Assembly: GCA_021817145.1 (NCBI GenBank)
Contig: JAKAVV010000020.1
Span: 1-46,778 of the forward strand
From: a bacterium
Lineage (GTDB): Bacteria; Vulcanimicrobiota; JABDET01
Reading direction: 5' to 3'
DNA length: 46,778 bases
The stretch's first letter is position 1. Every line of letters begins with the position of its first letter. Shown here piece after piece: positions 3,166 to 45,642 of this stretch. The notes beneath the pieces are model-generated. The model was given only the letters and a program-made list of their open reading frames with translations. It searched no databases and had not been told where the DNA came from. Position numbers and translations under genes: made by a program.

Positions 3166-4713
3166 ATGGAATTTGAACCTGTTATTGGACTTGAAATCCA
3201 TGTCGAATTAGGGACAAAAACAAAACTTTTCTGCGGGTGTTTAAATCGCTTCAATCAAGCTCCAAATTCACAGATCTGTCCTGTTTGTTTAGGACTTCCA
3301 GGAACTCTTCCATCGGTTAATCGTCAGGCAGTTGCCCTACTTATAAAAACAGGGCTGGCTTTGAACTGTTCTATTCCTCTTAAAAGCAAATTTGATCGAA
3401 AAAATTATTTTTATCCGGATATGCCTAAAAATTACCAGATTTCTCAATACGATTCCCCTTTTGCTGCTGAGGGAAAACTGGATCTCTGGATAGATGGGGT
3501 AAAAAAAACGGTTGAGATACAAAGAATTCATCTGGAAGAAGACACAGGGAAATCCATTCATGTTTCTACTTCTAACTCTCAGGGGGAGAAAAGAGCTGAT
3601 TCAGAGCGATCTGTGATCCTGGATAGAGCCATGAACTTGGAGAGAGCGATGATCGGGTCTCGAATCAGTGATGCGGATTATACTCTGCTTGATTATAACA
3701 GGGCAGGGGTCCCTTTAATGGAAATTGTGACAAAACCGGATCTTCGTTCCCCTGAAGAAGCGGTTTTGTTTTTGCAAAAACTGAGATTGATCGTTCAAAC
3801 CCTTGAAGTAAGCGACTGCAAAATGGAAGAAGGGCAAATGAGATGTGATGCCAATGTCAGTTTAAGAGAAAAAGGGAGTAAAGCTTTTGGAGAAAAAGTC
3901 GAGATTAAAAACATGAATTCTTTTAAATCGATTCGAGATGCTCTGCATCATGAAATTGAAAGGCAGAGGGAGAAGCTTTCTAAAGGAGAAAAAGTGTATC
4001 AAGAAACAAGAGGTTGGGATGAAACCAGAAAGATTACTTTTGTGATGAGAAGCAAAGAATATGCCCATGATTACAGATATTTTCCTGAACCAGATCTGCC
4101 TTCTTATGAAATCAGTCCGCAGTGGTTAAATGAAGTTAAAACATCTCTCCCTGAACTGCCGGATGAAAAAGAAAGGAGATATAAAGAGAAGTATCTTCTT
4201 TCAGATGAAGAGGTTCAAATTCTCCTTGGGAACCTGACCCTTGCTAAATTTTTTGATGAAGCTGCTACATGGGGGGGGAATCCAAAAGAGATCTGCATCT
4301 GGATAAAAGGAGATATTTCAAAATATTTAAATGAGAAAAAATGTGATTTAACTAAAACGAAATTGACCCCTGGTCTTTTAGTGGAACTGATTGGTTTCAT
4401 CGAAAAAGGGATCATTAATGGGAAAACAGCGAAAGAACTCCTTCCCGAGATTTTAGAAAAAGGGGTTCCTTCTTCTCTTGAATCCACGATCCAATCAAGA
4501 GGATTGGGTCAGATATCGGATTTGGATTCCTTAAAAAAAATTCTAGACGAGATTCTAGAAAAACCTGAATCTCAAAAAGCGGTTGAAGAGTACCTGAATG
4601 GGAATGAGCGCGCATTCGGATTTTTAGTTGGAGAAGTCATGAAAAAAACAAAAGGAAAAGCCAATCCTCAGATAGCGAATCAGTTGTTAAAAGAAATGTT
4701 TAAAAATATGTGA
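3166..4713 (+). CDS. gatB: Asp-tRNA(Asn)/Glu-tRNA(Gln) amidotransferase subunit B
   Basis: GatB kinases activate mischarged Asp-tRNA(Asn) or Glu-tRNA(Gln) so that ammonia from GatA can amidate it. The start at 3166 matches the family N-terminus [17 protein letters not shown] and gives 515 residues; an ATG at 3088 would add 26 unconserved residues. Clear motifs are the zinc cysteines (CGC and CPVC near residues 21-41), [64 protein letters not shown] and [12 protein letters not shown], followed by the C-terminal YqeY-like tRNA-binding tail [15 protein letters not shown]. gatA and gatC are not in the window. Presence of GatB implies indirect Gln-tRNA and/or Asn-tRNA synthesis. Confidence 0.96.
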
Positions 4714-28281: not shown

Positions 28282-28535
28282 TAGTTTAGAACCTCCTGTT
28301 CTTGTTATCTTGCCTCTTTTTAAAAACGATGCTCTCACTTTTTTGCTTTTGCAAAATATCTTCCTTCAACAGACAGGTCATTCAATTCAGTATATTTGGA
28401 TTATTATGAAATTGCGGTATATATTCGAGAAATATTTCTTTTTAAAGAGCTTGAAAGGAATGTGAAATGAAGACAAGAAAATTTAAGGCTGAGAACAGTA
28501 ATATCAAGAACTATCTTGAAAGAGGTGTCAGCATA

Positions 28536-29453
28536 ATGAATCGAAAACTTATCGCTTATTTTTTTCTGCTTTTTGCCCCTTTCCTGTTCTCATCCTGCGC
28601 CAAACATCAGAAATCCGTTTCTGCTCCTGAATCAGCGCCAACAAGTTTGAAACCCTCTCCTAAACTTTCTCTATCAAAACAAACCGAGAAAATGTATGGT
28701 TTAAAAGTTGTTCCAGAGAAAAAAGCGTATCATGGGATTTCAAATCGCGATCTTTTTGCTTTTAAAAATTCTGCAGTCAAATCTCCTCAAAAGAAAAAGA
28801 AGGTTCAGCTGATTCAGTATGGATTTAAAATTTTTAATAATACTCCGAAAGAAATGGGGAAAAAGGACGTTGGAGATCTTCTTTCCTGCGGCAGCTGCCA
28901 TTTAAAAGATGGAAGAGCCCCTTTTGGAGCTTCACTGGTTGGTGTTGTTAATCGTTATCCTCGTTACAGCCCTCGGGACAAAAGAGTTATTGGATTAAGA
29001 CAGCGGATTGAGGAATGTTTTGAAAGAAGTGAAAACGGAAAAGAGATTCCTAAAACTGGAAAACCGATGAAGGCTCTGCTGGCATACTTTGCTTTTATTT
29101 CTCGCAGCGCCCCATCAGGGACTATTGGATATGGATATGGGCTTAAACCCTTTTCCTTAAAAGGATTGAAGCCGAATGTAAAAAAAGGGAAGCTCTTGTT
29201 TGCCGCAAACTGCAGCAAATGTCATGGGTTAAATGGACAAGGTGGAATGGATGCGAAAGCAGGCCTTTTTGCTCCTCCTTTATGGGGTGGGCGCTCCTTT
29301 AACACAGGAGCTGGATTTTACAAATTGAAGAAAGTTGTTCCTTTTATTCAAGCCAATATGCCTTATGGGCATGGAGGGACCCTGACCCCTGAGCAGGCTG
29401 AAGAGATTGCCTCTTTTCTGCTCTCCCATCCTCGCCCTGTGTTTCATCCATAA
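28536..29453 (+). CDS. TsdA-like dihaem c-type cytochrome lipoprotein
   Basis: A 305-residue exported lipoprotein: signal MNRKLIAYFFLLFAPFLFSS with lipid-attachment Cys at 21. Two haem motifs are present, CGSCH at 118-122 and CSKCH at 226-230. The first is embedded in NTPKEMGKKDVGDLLSCGSC and is followed by RIEECFERSENGK, where C161 stands at the place of the unusual Cys haem ligand of thiosulfate dehydrogenase TsdA. TsdA joins two thiosulfates to tetrathionate or runs in reverse. The upstream ATG at 28467 would spoil the signal peptide, so the ATG at 28536 (AGAGGTG, 8 bases before) is chosen. Its last codons form one copy of a 27-bp direct repeat. Confidence 0.82.
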   Translation: MNRKLIAYFFLLFAPFLFSSCAKHQKSVSAPESAPTSLKPSPKLSLSKQTEKMYGLKVVPEKKAYHGISNRDLFAFKNSAVKSPQKKKKVQLIQYGFKIFNNTPKEMGKKDVGDLLSCGSCHLKDGRAPFGASLVGVVNRYPRYSPRDKRVIGLRQRIEECFERSENGKEIPKTGKPMKALLAYFAFISRSAPSGTIGYGYGLKPFSLKGLKPNVKKGKLLFAANCSKCHGLNGQGGMDAKAGLFAPPLWGGRSFNTGAGFYKLKKVVPFIQANMPYGHGGTLTPEQAEEIASFLLSHPRPVFHP

Positions 29454-29457
29454 GAAA
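29431..29457. repeat. 27-bp direct repeat, left copy
   Basis: Perfect match to 30211-30237, beginning CTCGCCCTGTGTTTC and ending CATCCATAAGAAA. This copy encodes the last residues and stop codon of the cytochrome gene, so it is the original sequence. The two copies enclose the nucleotidyltransferase cassette. Confidence 0.97.
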
Positions 29458-29516
29458 GGGGTTCCTTCTTTTTTCCACGAATTTTATTCATGAGGGATGG
29501 ATAAAGCAAATGGGAT

Positions 29517-29726
29517 ATGAGTGAGATAAACCGCAGCTTGCGAGAGGATTTTCCTTTTGAACAAAATTCCGTGATCGAAGCTTACAAAAAGTTTATTGAC
29601 CGCTCTCTGCTTCGAGAAAACCTGAAATGCACAGTGGAGGAACGATTTCTCCGCTTGATGTCTCTGCAGAGCTTTGCGGAGGAGCTCAGGAAAGCTCCTC
29701 GCAAACCTATTTCTCAGAATGGTTGA
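29517..29726 (+). CDS. Small protein paired with a nucleotidyltransferase, possible antitoxin or partner
   Basis: A 69-residue helical protein, with acidic and basic residues alternating and a C-terminal part VEERFLRLMSLQSFAEELRKA. I do not recognise a family by name. Its stop overlaps the start of the next gene by 8 bases, which is typical of two-gene toxin-antitoxin and nucleotidyltransferase modules. The ribosome-binding site is weak (GGG just upstream). Both genes lie inside the repeat-flanked cassette and so probably arrived together. Confidence 0.55.
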   Translation: MSEINRSLREDFPFEQNSVIEAYKKFIDRSLLRENLKCTVEERFLRLMSLQSFAEELRKAPRKPISQNG

Positions 29727-30201
29727 TTTTCCCAAGCTCCTCCGGGTCTTATCGCAAGAAGGGGTCGAGTTTATTATTGTGGGAGGGGCAGCAGCAGCAG
29801 CTCATGGGGCGAGTCGGTTAACCAATGATTTGGATCTGGTTTATCGCCGCTCTCCTGAAAATCATCTTCGCTTAGTAAAAGCGCTGCTTCCATTTTCTCC
29901 TTATCTGAGAGATGCTCCTGAAGGGCTTCCTTTTAAATGGGATACTCGCACCATTGGAATGGGATTAAATTTTACGCTTATCACAACCATGGGTTCTCTT
30001 GACTTGTTAGGAGAGATTACAGGAGGGGGAAAGTATGAAGATCTTCTCCCCTTTTGCGAGAAGATTCAAGTTTTTGAGATAGAATGTTATTGTCTTGGTC
30101 TTAAAAAATTGATTGAAGTGAAACGCGCTGCTGGAAGACCAAAAGATTTTGATGCGATTGCAGAACTCGAAACTTTATGGGAAGAAAAAAGAGAAAAATG
30201 A
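29719..30201 (+). CDS. MNT-like nucleotidyltransferase
   Basis: A 160-residue protein of the DNA polymerase beta-like nucleotidyltransferase superfamily. The start MVDFPKLLRVLSQEGVEFII leads to VGGAAAAAHGASRLTNDLDL, which holds the G-G core and the D-x-D metal motif (DLD). Further on are an acidic strand MGSLDLLGEITG and LGLKKLIEVKRAAGRPKDFD. This pattern is found in the AbiEii/DUF6036-type enzymes, many of which act in toxin-antitoxin or antiphage pairs. The start at 29719 is preferred to an ATG at 29674, because it overlaps the small gene's stop only slightly. The target RNA or protein is unknown. Confidence 0.78.
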   Translation: MVDFPKLLRVLSQEGVEFIIVGGAAAAAHGASRLTNDLDLVYRRSPENHLRLVKALLPFSPYLRDAPEGLPFKWDTRTIGMGLNFTLITTMGSLDLLGEITGGGKYEDLLPFCEKIQVFEIECYCLGLKKLIEVKRAAGRPKDFDAIAELETLWEEKREK

Positions 30202-30210
30202 AAATATTCT

Positions 30211-30237
30211 CTCGCCCTGTGTTTCATCCATAAGAAA
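30211..30237. repeat. 27-bp direct repeat, right copy
   Basis: Identical to 29431-29457. It lies 6 bases upstream of the queG start codon. Removing one repeat and the cassette would leave the cytochrome stop about 10 bases before the queG ATG, so the two genes were probably adjacent before the event. Confidence 0.97.
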
Positions 30238-30243
30238 AGTATT

Positions 30244-31224
30244 ATGGGATTTTTAAAACAGAAAATTAAGGAAAAAGCTTTTGAGATCGGGTTTTCTCAT
30301 ATTGGATTTTCAAGAGCTGAAAAACTTCCCGCTGCTCCTCTGCTGAACTGGTTAAGCCAGGGGTATCATGGGACAATGCAGTATATGGATCGGGATCCTG
30401 AAATTCGTCTGGATCCTTTCAAATTTTTCCCTGGCTGCAAAACCGTTATTTCTCTTTCATTAAATTATTACACACCCTACCCAACAAAAGCTCATCAGGA
30501 TCAGGGGCGAATTTCTCGATATGCCTGGGGAAGAGATTATCATAAAGTCATGAGAAAAAAATTAAAAGCTCTGTCTAACTATCTTCTGGATTTGGCTGGA
30601 GATGCAAAGGTGAAAATCTGTGTGGATTCCTCCCCTGTTTTAGAAAAAGCCTGGGCGCAGAAAGCTGGGATCGGCTGGCAGGGGAAACACAGCAATCTGA
30701 TTTCGAAAGATTTAGGATCCTGGATATTTCTTGGAGAAATTTTAACAGATTTGGAAATAGAGCCAGATAAACCTCATGCTGATTTCTGTGGAACATGTAA
30801 TAAATGTATAGAAGCCTGCCCAACAGAGGCAATTGTTTCTCCTTATATAGTAGATAGCGCAAAATGCATTTCATACATCACGATTGAGTCAAAAGAACTG
30901 CCTGATGGAGAGACTGCAGAAGAAACAGGGGATTGGATCTTTGGATGCGACATCTGTCAGGAAGTTTGCCCTTGGAATAAGTTTCAAAAGACAACAGATG
31001 AATCGGATTTTTTCCCTAAACTCGAAAATCAGATTCTCCTTGAATCCTGGATTAACATGAGTGAGGAGGAGTTTGTTGAGCGTTTTTCAGGGACCCCTTT
31101 AATGAGAGGAAAACACAAGAAGATGATTGAAAATGCAAAAAATGCTCTGAATAACTTGAAGCGGCAAAAAAGGGTTCATGCCTTCAATTTTAGAATTTTC
31201 GTATATGCAAATACCTCTGGTTGA
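30244..31224 (+). CDS. queG: Epoxyqueuosine reductase
   Basis: Last step of queuosine synthesis in tRNA: reduces epoxyqueuosine using cobalamin and two 4Fe-4S clusters. The 326-residue protein has the first cluster cysteines at 182, 185, 188 and 192 (CGTCNKCIEACP) and a second set at 208, 235, 238 and 242 (CDICQEVCPWN). Upstream are RDYHKVMRKK, DSSPVLEKAWAQKAGIGWQG and SWIFLGEIL, typical of QueG. No ribosome-binding site is obvious before the ATG, where the 27-bp repeat now lies. It overlaps the start of the next gene by 20 bases. Confidence 0.95.
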   Translation: MGFLKQKIKEKAFEIGFSHIGFSRAEKLPAAPLLNWLSQGYHGTMQYMDRDPEIRLDPFKFFPGCKTVISLSLNYYTPYPTKAHQDQGRISRYAWGRDYHKVMRKKLKALSNYLLDLAGDAKVKICVDSSPVLEKAWAQKAGIGWQGKHSNLISKDLGSWIFLGEILTDLEIEPDKPHADFCGTCNKCIEACPTEAIVSPYIVDSAKCISYITIESKELPDGETAEETGDWIFGCDICQEVCPWNKFQKTTDESDFFPKLENQILLESWINMSEEEFVERFSGTPLMRGKHKKMIENAKNALNNLKRQKRVHAFNFRIFVYANTSG

Positions 31225-36547: not shown

Positions 36548-36576
36548 TTGTATGGTTCTGACAGCTCCTGTAAAAT
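36548..36576 (+). promoter_or_regulatory. Promoter of the first tandem paralogue
   Basis: TTGTAT (36548-36553), 17-base spacer, TAAAAT (36571-36576). A TTGTTTACA element lies exactly 41 bases upstream of the -10 (36530) and recurs at the same distance before the second copy, so it may bind a regulator. Confidence 0.6.
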
Positions 36577-36612
36577 AAAGAGAGTGGAAAAATTTAGAGC
36601 GGAGGTATGAAA

Positions 36613-37338
36613 ATGAATACAATTCAAGGCAGCAGATCAAGAATGATACAGGGGAGCCAATCAGGCGCCGCAGGAAAAGCTCCAGTTACTGCTGGAGATG
36701 CGCAAGCTGCTGGAGGCTCGAATCCAGCAGAACCGAACTGGCAGCCTGCTCCACCAATGAGCCAGCAGCAAGTAGATCATTATGCCAAGGAATTAGCCCC
36801 TTTTAGAATGCCAGGTTGGGATCAGGCGGCTACAGACATGTATAACCTTCGCGTTTACCATAACACCCGTCTCCAAACTGTTGGAACAGATTCACAGGGG
36901 AATATTGATGCTTATGTTCTTTCAGGAACAGTTGTTGATGGAAAATACCCCCCTGGACTTACACATGATGGAGATATGCATTTTGATATTGCTCCAGATC
37001 CTCAATACCCTGCAGATTTAATAAACAGCAAGAATATTCAGAGTGAAAATGGAAAGTTAGTTTGTGAGATTGTCCATGCAGGGCCTACGACACAAGGGGA
37101 TGCTAAACAAAGTGGACAAGGGTATGTGAATCAAGTGCCTCTGCCCAAATTGGGAGAGCATATTTATATTGTTGGTCCCTACGTTTTAGATAAAGATCAT
37201 GGGTGGATGGAATGTCATCCTGTTCTTTATGTTGGTTCAACTCCACCTCCTGCCAATCCACCTGCTTCTCTTTTACAGTCCATTCAAGGCACTAGCAGCT
37301 ATAATGTGAAAAAAGTTCTTCTTAAACCAGAAGGATGA
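36613..37338 (+). CDS. Unknown protein family, tandem copy A
   Basis: A 241-residue protein I do not recognise, with no signal peptide or membrane helix. Residues 1-40 are Gly/Ser/Ala-rich with IQGS repeated (TIQGSRSRMIQGSQSG), and the C-terminus repeats it (SIQGTSSYN). The middle holds a well-conserved domain: MSQQQVDHYAKELAPF, YHNTRLQTVGTD, HDGDMHFDIAPD, KLVCEIVHAGP, HIYIVGPYVLDKDHGWMECH with PV. H-x-G-D-x-H and W-M-E-x-H-P-V could bind a metal. GGAGG lies 7 bases before the second ATG (36613), so I chose that over the ATG at 36607. Confidence 0.8.
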   Translation: MNTIQGSRSRMIQGSQSGAAGKAPVTAGDAQAAGGSNPAEPNWQPAPPMSQQQVDHYAKELAPFRMPGWDQAATDMYNLRVYHNTRLQTVGTDSQGNIDAYVLSGTVVDGKYPPGLTHDGDMHFDIAPDPQYPADLINSKNIQSENGKLVCEIVHAGPTTQGDAKQSGQGYVNQVPLPKLGEHIYIVGPYVLDKDHGWMECHPVLYVGSTPPPANPPASLLQSIQGTSSYNVKKVLLKPEG

Positions 37339-37370
37339 ATTTTTGTGTCGGATTGTTTACAATTTTTTCA

Positions 37371-37399
37371 TTGCTGTATTACCATACTTTTTGTAAAAT
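37371..37399 (+). promoter_or_regulatory. Promoter of the second tandem paralogue
   Basis: TTGCTG (37371-37376), 17-base spacer, TAAAAT (37394-37399). A TTGTTTACA element lies 41 bases upstream of the -10 (37353), as in the first copy, so the gene was duplicated together with its control region. Confidence 0.6.
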
Positions 37400-37435
37400 A
37401 AAGAAAGAGGAAAAATTTAGAGCGGAGGTATGAAA

Positions 37436-38158
37436 ATGAATACAATTCAAGGCAGCAGATCAATCATGATGCAGGGGAGTCAATCAGGGGCCGCAGGAAA
37501 AGCTCTTGTTACTGCTGGTAACAATCCGGCAGTAGGGGATGATAATCCAGCAAACCCGAACTGGAGGCCTGCTCCACCGATGAGCCAGCAGCAAGTAGAT
37601 CACTATGCCAAGGAATTAGCCCCTTTTAGAATGCCAGGTTGGGATCAAGCAGCCACACAAATGTATAATTTGAGGGTTTATCACAATTCTCGTCTCCAGA
37701 CAGTTGGAACAGATTCACAGGGGAACATTGATGCTTATGTGATTTCAGGAACAGTGGATGCTGGTTTCCCTCCCCATTTAGAACCAGATGGAGATATGCA
37801 TTTTAATGTGAAATTAGATCCCCAGTACGCAGCAGATTTAATTAACAGCAAAAATGTCCAGAGTGAAAATGGGGAATTAGTCTGTGAAATTGTGCATGCA
37901 GGACCTGCTACCCAAGGGGATGCTGAACCAGGTGGTCAAGGGTATGTCAACCAAGTAACTCTGCCAAAACCAGGGCAGCACGTTTATCTTGTCGGGCCTT
38001 ATGCCTTAGACAAAGATCATGGCTGGATGGAATGTCATCCTGTTCTTTATGTTGGCTCAACCCCTCCTCCTGCTAATCCGCCGGCTTCTCTTTTGCAGTC
38101 TATTCAAGGGACTAGCGGTTTTAATTCGGCAAAAATGACAACAAAAGCAGGAGGGTGA
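37436..38158 (+). CDS. Unknown protein family, tandem copy B
   Basis: A 240-residue paralogue of the preceding gene, shifted by 823 bases. N-terminal part, central domain and C-terminal IQGT element all align with copy A; differences cluster in the linker (VTAGNNPAVGDDNPANPNW), in HLEPDGDMHFNV and in the last 15 residues. The conserved DGDMHF, EIVHAGP and HGWMECHPVLYVG segments are kept, so the domain is under selection. GGAGG is placed 7 bases before this ATG. It ends before a bidirectional terminator facing the reductase gene. Confidence 0.8.
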   Translation: MNTIQGSRSIMMQGSQSGAAGKALVTAGNNPAVGDDNPANPNWRPAPPMSQQQVDHYAKELAPFRMPGWDQAATQMYNLRVYHNSRLQTVGTDSQGNIDAYVISGTVDAGFPPHLEPDGDMHFNVKLDPQYAADLINSKNVQSENGELVCEIVHAGPATQGDAEPGGQGYVNQVTLPKPGQHVYLVGPYALDKDHGWMECHPVLYVGSTPPPANPPASLLQSIQGTSGFNSAKMTTKAGG

Positions 38159-43860: not shown

Positions 43861-45642
43861 GTGATAAAAAAGATGGGCATAAAAAAGTTCGGGATTTTAT
43901 TGATTATTTTTTTCTCTGTTTCTCTTTTATTCAGCTCCTGTGGAAAGAAATCCAGCTCACTGACTGGAACAAGCTCTGGCACTGGCAGCACAAGTGGAGG
44001 GGGCAGCAGTTCTTTAAGTGTCAGCGGAACAGTCAATGGCGGAACATCTCCTATTTCTGGAGCTTCTGTGAGTCTCATGGAAGCAGGCAGTACTTCTTCT
44101 CTTTCCACAGCCGCCACAAATTCAAGCGGGCAGTTCACTTTAACCATCCCTTCTTCAGCTTCTGGAATTTTGTATGTAGAAGCACTCGGAGGGTCCACAA
44201 ATGGAGGGGCAAACAATAATAATATTCAGCTTCTTGCCTTTGTCAATGTGGGAGCCCCTTCTTCCAGTATCAGCAATTTAGTGGTGAATGAACTGACAAC
44301 CTCTGCTTTTATGGAAGCCATGTTTCATTTTGGAATGGTCTCAAGCGCTGGCGGAACGATCACCTTTACCTCTCCTGCTAATACAGCTGCCCAAACCAAT
44401 GCAGTTACTCAGTATAACAATATGGTAACAACCAGTGGAGCTTTAAATACCAGCAATTCGAATTTGACGAGTTCGGATCAGAACTCATTATATTTTGCAG
44501 CAGATGCATTAGCAAGCTGTGTGGAAAACTCTGGGAACTGCAGCACCATGATGGCTGATACAGGAGGAGCTTCCAATATGAGGAGGTCTCTCTATAATCT
44601 GCTCAATACTCCGAGCGAGATTGCAGGATTGACCACCCTGGCAAGTGGAATGGAAACCAGCACAGGATGGAGTTTTTCTTCCACTCCAACCGCTGTTTCC
44701 TTTATCCTGCCGAGCGCGATTAATCCTTTCCCTGTTGGAACTAGCCCTGTTGGGCTTGCCATTGATGCTTCCGGAAATGTCTGGGTTGCAAACTATGGCA
44801 GTGGTAATGTAACAGAATTAAACTCATCTGGAGCCACTCTCGGCACTTTCCCTGTTGGAACTAATCCTATTGGGCTTGCCATTGATTCAAGTGGAAATGT
44901 CTGGGTTACAAACTTTGCCAGCAGTAATGTAACAGAATTAAACTCTTCTGGCGCAGTTCTCGGCACTTTCCCTGCTGGAACTGACCCTGCTGGGATTGCC
45001 ATTGATTCAAGTGGAAATGTTTGGGTTGCAAACGGTGGCAGCAGTAATGTAACAGAATTAAACTCTTCTGGCGCAGTTCTCGGCACTTTCCCTGCTGGAA
45101 CTGACCCTGCTGGGCTTGCCATTGATGCTTCCGGAAATGTCTGGGTTGCAAATTCTGGGCAGTACAACAGCACTGTAACAGAATTAAATTCTAAAGGTGC
45201 AGTTCTCGGCACTTTCCCTGTTGGAACTAGCCCTGTTGGGCTTGCCATTGATGCTTCCGGAAATGTCTGGGTTGCAAACTATGGCAGTGGTAATGTAACA
45301 GAATTAAACTCTAAAGGTGCAGTTCTCGGCACTTTCCCTGTTGGGACGTACCCTGTTGGGCTTGCCATTGATGCTTCCGGAAATGTCTGGGTAACAAACC
45401 CTGCCAGCGACACTGTAACAGAATTAAACTCTTTAGGCACAGTTCTCAGCACTTTCACTGTTTCCGCCGCACCACTTGGGCTTGCCATTGATGTTTCCGG
45501 AAATATGTGGTTGACAAACCCCGGCAGCAACAGCAAAACTGTAACAGAATTAAAAGGAATAACCCTGCCCCAGTTTTTTCCATATTCTGGACCCCAATAT
45601 CCAGGCAGCAGTTTTTCTGCTGGTGGAGGAGGGTCCAGGTAA
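43861..45642 (+). CDS. NHL/Vgb-like repeat lipoprotein
   Basis: A 593-residue lipoprotein with a signal and lipobox LLFSSC (Cys near 27), then a Gly/Ser/Thr-rich linker, a carboxypeptidase-regulatory-like part (GTVNGGTSPISGASVSLMEA, SSGQFTLTIPSSASGILYVE), a helical middle and seven copies of a 40-residue unit like FPVGTSPVGLAIDASGNVWV followed by ANYGSGNVTELNS. Such repeats form beta-propellers. The GTG at 43861 has GAGGGGGG seven bases upstream. It lies on the outer membrane or in the periplasm. Function unknown; ligand or polysaccharide binding is plausible. Confidence 0.82.
   Translation: MIKKMGIKKFGILLIIFFSVSLLFSSCGKKSSSLTGTSSGTGSTSGGGSSSLSVSGTVNGGTSPISGASVSLMEAGSTSSLSTAATNSSGQFTLTIPSSASGILYVEALGGSTNGGANNNNIQLLAFVNVGAPSSSISNLVVNELTTSAFMEAMFHFGMVSSAGGTITFTSPANTAAQTNAVTQYNNMVTTSGALNTSNSNLTSSDQNSLYFAADALASCVENSGNCSTMMADTGGASNMRRSLYNLLNTPSEIAGLTTLASGMETSTGWSFSSTPTAVSFILPSAINPFPVGTSPVGLAIDASGNVWVANYGSGNVTELNSSGATLGTFPVGTNPIGLAIDSSGNVWVTNFASSNVTELNSSGAVLGTFPAGTDPAGIAIDSSGNVWVANGGSSNVTELNSSGAVLGTFPAGTDPAGLAIDASGNVWVANSGQYNSTVTELNSKGAVLGTFPVGTSPVGLAIDASGNVWVANYGSGNVTELNSKGAVLGTFPVGTYPVGLAIDASGNVWVTNPASDTVTELNSLGTVLSTFTVSAAPLGLAIDVSGNMWLTNPGSNSKTVTELKGITLPQFFPYSGPQYPGSSFSAGGGGSR
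44726..45550 (+). repeat. Seven 120-bp tandem repeats in the propeller region
   Basis: Units of 120 bases (one of 126) follow each other in frame. Copies 1 and 5 share 100 identical bases (44726-44825 and 45212-45311) although intervening copies differ, and copies 3 and 4 also match closely at their ends. This points to recent gene conversion or repeat shuffling. Confidence 0.9.

Follow-up and report, generated by a model that had tools for sequence, protein, structure and literature searches.

Introduction

Integrating elements leave direct repeats, attL and attR, at the 3' ends of genes. Insertion with a long target duplication was reportedly described for restriction-modification genes by Nobusato in 2000. 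Three papers report that the insertion of restriction-modification genes is accompanied by duplications of the target that are long and variable, in the region of 100 bp (PMC3874152, PMC3031569, PMC1643837). Among small variable segments of bacterial genomes, 10-18% are flanked by direct repeats, and illegitimate recombination has been proposed for them (PMC2884548). MenAT1 of Mycobacterium tuberculosis consists of a 68-aa antitoxin gene paired with a nucleotidyltransferase (NTase) toxin (PMC10435456; 8an4/8an5). Bare toxin-antitoxin (TA) genes raise the question of how a gene can spread with no plasmid, phage or transposase to carry it, and a literature search found no report of a long-target-duplication scar around TA modules. 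Here we analyse an NTase gene pair, most likely a TA module, that lies between direct repeats in a window of 46,778 nucleotides, the whole stretch of bacterial DNA that was studied. The genes and repeats of this locus are on the forward strand, and positions are those of the window unless another locus is named.

The direct repeats and their flanking genes

The sequence CTCGCCCTGTGTTTCATCCATAAGAAA (END27) occurs exactly at 29431-29457 and again at 30211-30237, the copies being spaced 780 bp, which confirms the 27-bp direct repeats that the initial annotation had placed at a cytochrome-queG junction. The open reading frames bear out its further description of the two ends. The left copy is formed by the 3' end and stop codon (TAA) of a SoxA/TsdA-type c-type cytochrome gene (28467-29453; Pfam SoxA-TsdA_cyt-c, E=5.7e-12), the putative duplicated target, and the right copy ends 6 bp upstream of the ATG of queG, encoding epoxyqueuosine reductase (30244-31224; NCBIfam TIGR00276, E=1.3e-104). 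The repeat had been judged too long for chance, in agreement with the roughly 6e-9 exact 27-bp pairs at most 1 kb apart that are expected across the window. A search of the window's genome at up to three mismatches revealed no further copy of END27, and at the same threshold none was found in the same-genus genome or in the same-family genome.

Removal of the 780-bp unit in silico leaves GAAAAGTATT between the stop codon and the ATG, a gap of 10 bp as had been estimated. The unit contains two overlapping open reading frames only, of 69 and 160 aa. Neither mark of a transposon or insertion sequence was found, as the initial annotation had also stated: the listed reading frames include no transposase within the unit, and no inverted repeats bracket it. 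Two other repetitive regions were observed in the window, a tandem duplication at 36569-38086 with about 820-bp spacing and 81-93% identity, probably two paralogous genes, and an array of a repeat of about 120 bp at 44688-45593 with six overlapping copies of 63-80% identity.

The gene pair as a putative toxin-antitoxin module

The downstream gene of the pair (29719-30201) encodes an NTase of 160 aa, a putative toxin, in which the catalytic motif T35-x-D37-x-D39 and K135 are invariant across 27 aligned sequences. Its AlphaFold model (pLDDT 91.5) has the Thermotoga protein TM1012 and MenT1/MenAT1 as best structural matches, and MenT1 is also the top sequence match of the NTase profile in the PDB (E=0.0018). 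The predicted structure combines an NTase fold with intact catalytic residues, as MenAT1-like modules do. The window NTase alone stays under all Pfam cut-offs, but among the sequences aligned with it there are matches to DUF6036, DUF2204 or AbiEii. It does not qualify as part of an AbiE type IV TA system, with an AbiEii score of 16.5 bits against a cut-off of 22.5 and a partner that fits no AbiEi model.

The upstream gene (29517-29726) encodes a small protein of 69 aa, a putative antitoxin, which matched no known family; a profile search of PDB chains with it did not return MenA1. A partner of this kind lies upstream of the NTase in 80/80 loci, mostly with a 4-nt overlap. Homologs from Gemmatimonadota (L104, L105, L106, L108, L124, L128, L130) carry the partner as a fusion with an XRE-type helix-turn-helix domain (HTH_3), and L096 carries it fused to a PhdYefM (Phd/YefM) antitoxin domain. 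Because of these two independent fusions to antitoxin DNA-binding domains, the best guess is that the small protein is the antitoxin and the NTase the toxin, and the pair is most likely an NTase TA module, in which the NTase would be toxic. Of the mobile defence or TA cassette first proposed for the unit, the TA-like part therefore stands, backed by the constant partner, its fusions and the MenT1 fold, and the defence part finds no support: PADLOC yields weak AbiEii matches only (E of 0.009 or more).

A 42-nt stretch at 29509-29550, which supplies the N-terminus of the small protein, recurs at 86% identity on contig 40 of the same genome (G000 C40:102959-103000), within the 5' part of a TonB-receptor-like gene. 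We considered a dispersed repeat and rejected it, as this is the single other copy in the genome. In the same-genus genome, 35 nt at 2292-2326 of locus L012 (G001 C8, reverse complement) match the middle part of the small gene at 89% identity and may be left over from a further copy of the cassette.

In one scan 508 relatives were confirmed, and the best 80 of these 508 come from many phyla, with identities of 52-82%. Within the phylum of the window itself the distribution is patchy (38/148 genomes). Searches of plasmid and phage records gave no match to the pair, and carriage by either was rejected on that ground. The NTase pair is thus a widespread module, whose small partner is covered by no curated family model.

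The junction in a sister species

A single genome of the same genus (G001, 76-79% DNA identity) was available for comparison, and it has the cytochrome gene and queG at the same locus. Between them it carries no NTase pair; a gene for a 106-aa retropepsin-like aspartyl protease, identified by inspection, is found there instead (L010 on G001 C8, oriented as reverse complement, about 3410-3770). The pair has an ortholog in G001 (77% DNA identity) on another contig after a tRNA-Ser. A reciprocal empty site for this G001 cassette was looked for as well, but synteny breaks at the tRNA-Ser. According to the initial annotation, the insertion would be refuted if all relatives carried the cassette and both repeats; G001 is without both at this site. 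As a single-copy site its junction shows one copy, but with another gene present. A cytochrome-queG junction free of accessory genes was not found in this one same-genus genome, and in G002 queG stands in another context. In G002 we also observed two retropepsin-like protease genes beside a divergent NTase pair (L027). Different accessory genes may replace one another at the cytochrome-queG junction.

In G001 the cytochrome stop codon is followed by GAAAGGGGTTTGCATCTTTTTCCACGAAGAGAAGAAATATTATGGGATT; in the window, GGGGTTCCTTCTTTTTTCCACGAA follows the left copy and AGTATTATGGGATT the right copy. The post-stop bases of G001 (GGGG..TTTTTCCACGAA) match the window bases after the left copy, with a score that 0/20,000 shuffles reach. 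These 24 bp (29458-29481) are native cytochrome downstream sequence, still in place after the left copy as part of the original target. Hence the ancestor is not recovered when the 780-bp unit is deleted, and in this detail the initial reading fails. For the same reason we rejected a plain target-site duplication in which the insert would be the 780-bp unit. The earlier reading as an insertion survives in part: the acquired TA-like cassette and the duplication without an obvious transposon hold, and the clean 780-bp insert whose loss restores the ancestor does not. From the end of the G001 alignment at 29481, the edge given by the right repeat and the occurrence of the orthologous pair elsewhere in G001, we infer an inserted unit of 729 bp (29482-30210) made up of a leader, the small gene and the NTase gene.

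The start of queG in the window, TATTATGGGATT, is identical to that of the aspartyl protease gene at the G001 junction, and it may derive from the protease-gene start; in that case the ancestor would have had the protease and then lost it. With the G001 match after the left copy and its end after the right copy, the native downstream sequence in the window is split, its first part following the left copy and its last part the right one. A layout in which native upstream sequence runs to the left copy and native downstream sequence continues from the right copy was tested and failed; it is recoverable only via an assumed 33-bp deletion.

Bracketing repeats at homologous loci

Both flanks of homologous pairs were searched for direct repeats. 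Tight brackets were found in L132 (138 bp, 92%, pnp 3' end and terminator), L078 (124 bp, 90%), L085 (97 bp, 69%, rnd 3' end), L093 (74 bp, 93%, gene 3' end), L121 (69 bp, 86%, gene 5' end) and L224 (60 bp, 87%), with a weak one in L135 (22 bp, 95%). The neighbours of L132 are not conserved among relatives. Direct repeats of target sequence thus surround the unit in the window as well as at homologous loci, and the search for the same cassette at gene ends elsewhere, proposed at the outset, is answered by bracketed pairs in other phyla, for example at the pnp and rnd 3' ends. At E<1e-6 and in identical search windows, tight brackets occur in 6/84 NTase pair loci, a count that leaves out the window locus and L110 (a slicing artefact), against 1/228 ordinary genes, mostly core genes and not recently acquired ones (Fisher p=0.002). 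About 93% of the homologous pairs are without a bracketing repeat.

ParE modules served as a control TA family and are bracketed in 8/29 cases (p=8e-8); against 0/91 ordinary genes in Nitrospiraceae rnd loci the value is p=5e-6. All these ParE modules come from one family (Nitrospiraceae), and the loci were picked by sequence similarity, not randomly, some being related. A mobility peculiar to this NTase pair was rejected, as ParE modules bear such scars more often. The same brackets around ParE suggest that the scar is a general insertion signature of TA modules and not specific to this NTase. At the purQ 3' end, a recurrent target, ParE modules with duplications of 95-99 bp were observed in two Nitrospiraceae genomes (L230, L254). 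In L037 (G030), 95-bp repeats of 94% identity (oriented positions 1083-1177 and 2376-2470), which hold an apparent promoter and gene start, flank a divergent NTase gene.

Origin of the repeats

We consider it probable that the NTase TA module was acquired horizontally and joined illegitimately at the cytochrome 3' end with duplication of the target, that the right copy was then cut by about 33 bp, and that addiction kept the repeats. A target of at least 51 bp (29431-29481) would have been copied, so that the gene end survives on one side and the queG junction on the other. Slippage between the similar segments TTTCATCCATAAGAA and TTTCCACGAAGAGAAGAA would later have removed about 33 bp from the right copy and left 27 identical bases, the right END27 (30211-30237) being the remnant. 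Together, the duplication and this loss probably account for the split native sequence. The joining step would likely have been illegitimate recombination of a captured fragment, not the work of a dedicated transposase, either by fill-in of a staggered break or by recombination with one-sided homology. Such repeats would persist around TA modules because the toxin would be set off once the module that they enclose is deleted. Several observations count against this explanation: the layout of a plain duplication is absent in the window, so that an extra deletion is required; the one same-genus genome shows no cytochrome-queG site free of accessory genes; most homologous pairs carry no bracket; and the two copies at L085 differ in ancestry, which simple local duplication does not predict.

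Direct-repeat scars fix insertion points to the base, and the ancestry of the copies can therefore separate target duplication from one-sided recombination computationally. Empty sites with a single copy exist for the Nitrospira rnd homolog (L085): in many related Nitrospiraceae the arsC-like gene is immediately followed by just one rnd end. The distal rnd copy of L085 is closest to its nearest relative L174 (75%; rnd body 77%). The rnd-attached copy most resembles that of L195 (83%), the lineage that stands furthest away by its rnd body (65%). This difference suggests that sequence was imported on the side of the gene, or that a replacement took place later. In the purQ ParE modules (L230, L254) neither copy is closer to relatives than the other, and the distal copy of L230 retains a native-type tail, which argues that this case is a true target duplication. 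Taken together, the two patterns indicate that insertion leaves at least two outcomes.

The L085 pattern is what one-sided homologous recombination (homology-facilitated illegitimate recombination) would produce, a process described for naturally competent bacteria (PMC2884548). A cassette arriving beside the same gene end would recombine homologously on one side and be joined illegitimately on the other, and the resident and imported gene ends would be left as direct repeats. As the origin of the window repeats we regard this as unlikely, although it is the rival to be taken most seriously. L085 fits a later replacement of the gene end just as well, the purQ copies show no such asymmetry, and an earlier de novo insertion is still required; in the window the copies are identical, so that a foreign origin of one of them would not show.

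Duplication of the target with later loss from the right copy also has to be weighed against a purely local event, in which template switching or partial tandem duplication put the 27-bp cytochrome end beside queG and the cassette arrived separately. The native downstream sequence carried by the left copy and an AAGAAA microhomology at the right join agree with such an event. It leaves unexplained why the second copy starts just 9 bp past the NTase stop and why bracketing recurs at other TA loci, and we hold it to be improbable. Site-specific integration by an integrase acting in trans, with the gene end as attachment site, would give repeats at gene 3' ends that look like attL and attR, but both the targets (pnp, rnd, purQ, a gene 5' end) and the repeat lengths (22-138 bp) change from locus to locus, a common core is absent, and phage and plasmid records gave no match, making it very improbable.

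Beyond this locus, we tentatively propose that solitary TA modules of unrelated families commonly enter chromosomes by a shared transposase-free route that duplicates 30-140 bp, usually a gene end, a generalization for which we claim less than even confidence. If true, the duplication keeps the target gene alive, addiction blocks repeat-mediated deletion, and the scar marks TA mobility across phyla.

Comparison with known systems

The NTase core motif is common to AbiEii, DUF6036 and DUF2204 NTases and the window protein. In contrast to AbiEii systems, no AbiEi antitoxin adjoins the window NTase, which also falls below the Pfam cut-offs. The closer likeness is to MenAT1, which shares the small antitoxin gene with an NTase toxin, the toxin fold, and the T-x-D motif and Lys in equivalent order; the sequence relation is weak, however, at the E value given above, and no similarity to MenA1 could be detected in the 69-aa partner.

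With regard to the repeats, the small variable segments of bacterial genomes (PMC2884548) are likewise accessory segments between direct repeats. Their repeats are mostly shorter than 30 bp and have no TA link, whereas most of those found here measure 60-138 bp. Restriction-modification genes, as described in the papers cited above, are solitary addiction-type units without a transposase and with long, variable target repeats of the order of 100 bp, and in these respects they resemble the present loci. They differ from them in that the unit here is an NTase pair, or likewise ParE, and in that the window repeat is short (27 bp) with a layout that needs an extra deletion. A TA-like module thus carries the long-target-duplication scar known from restriction-modification genes.
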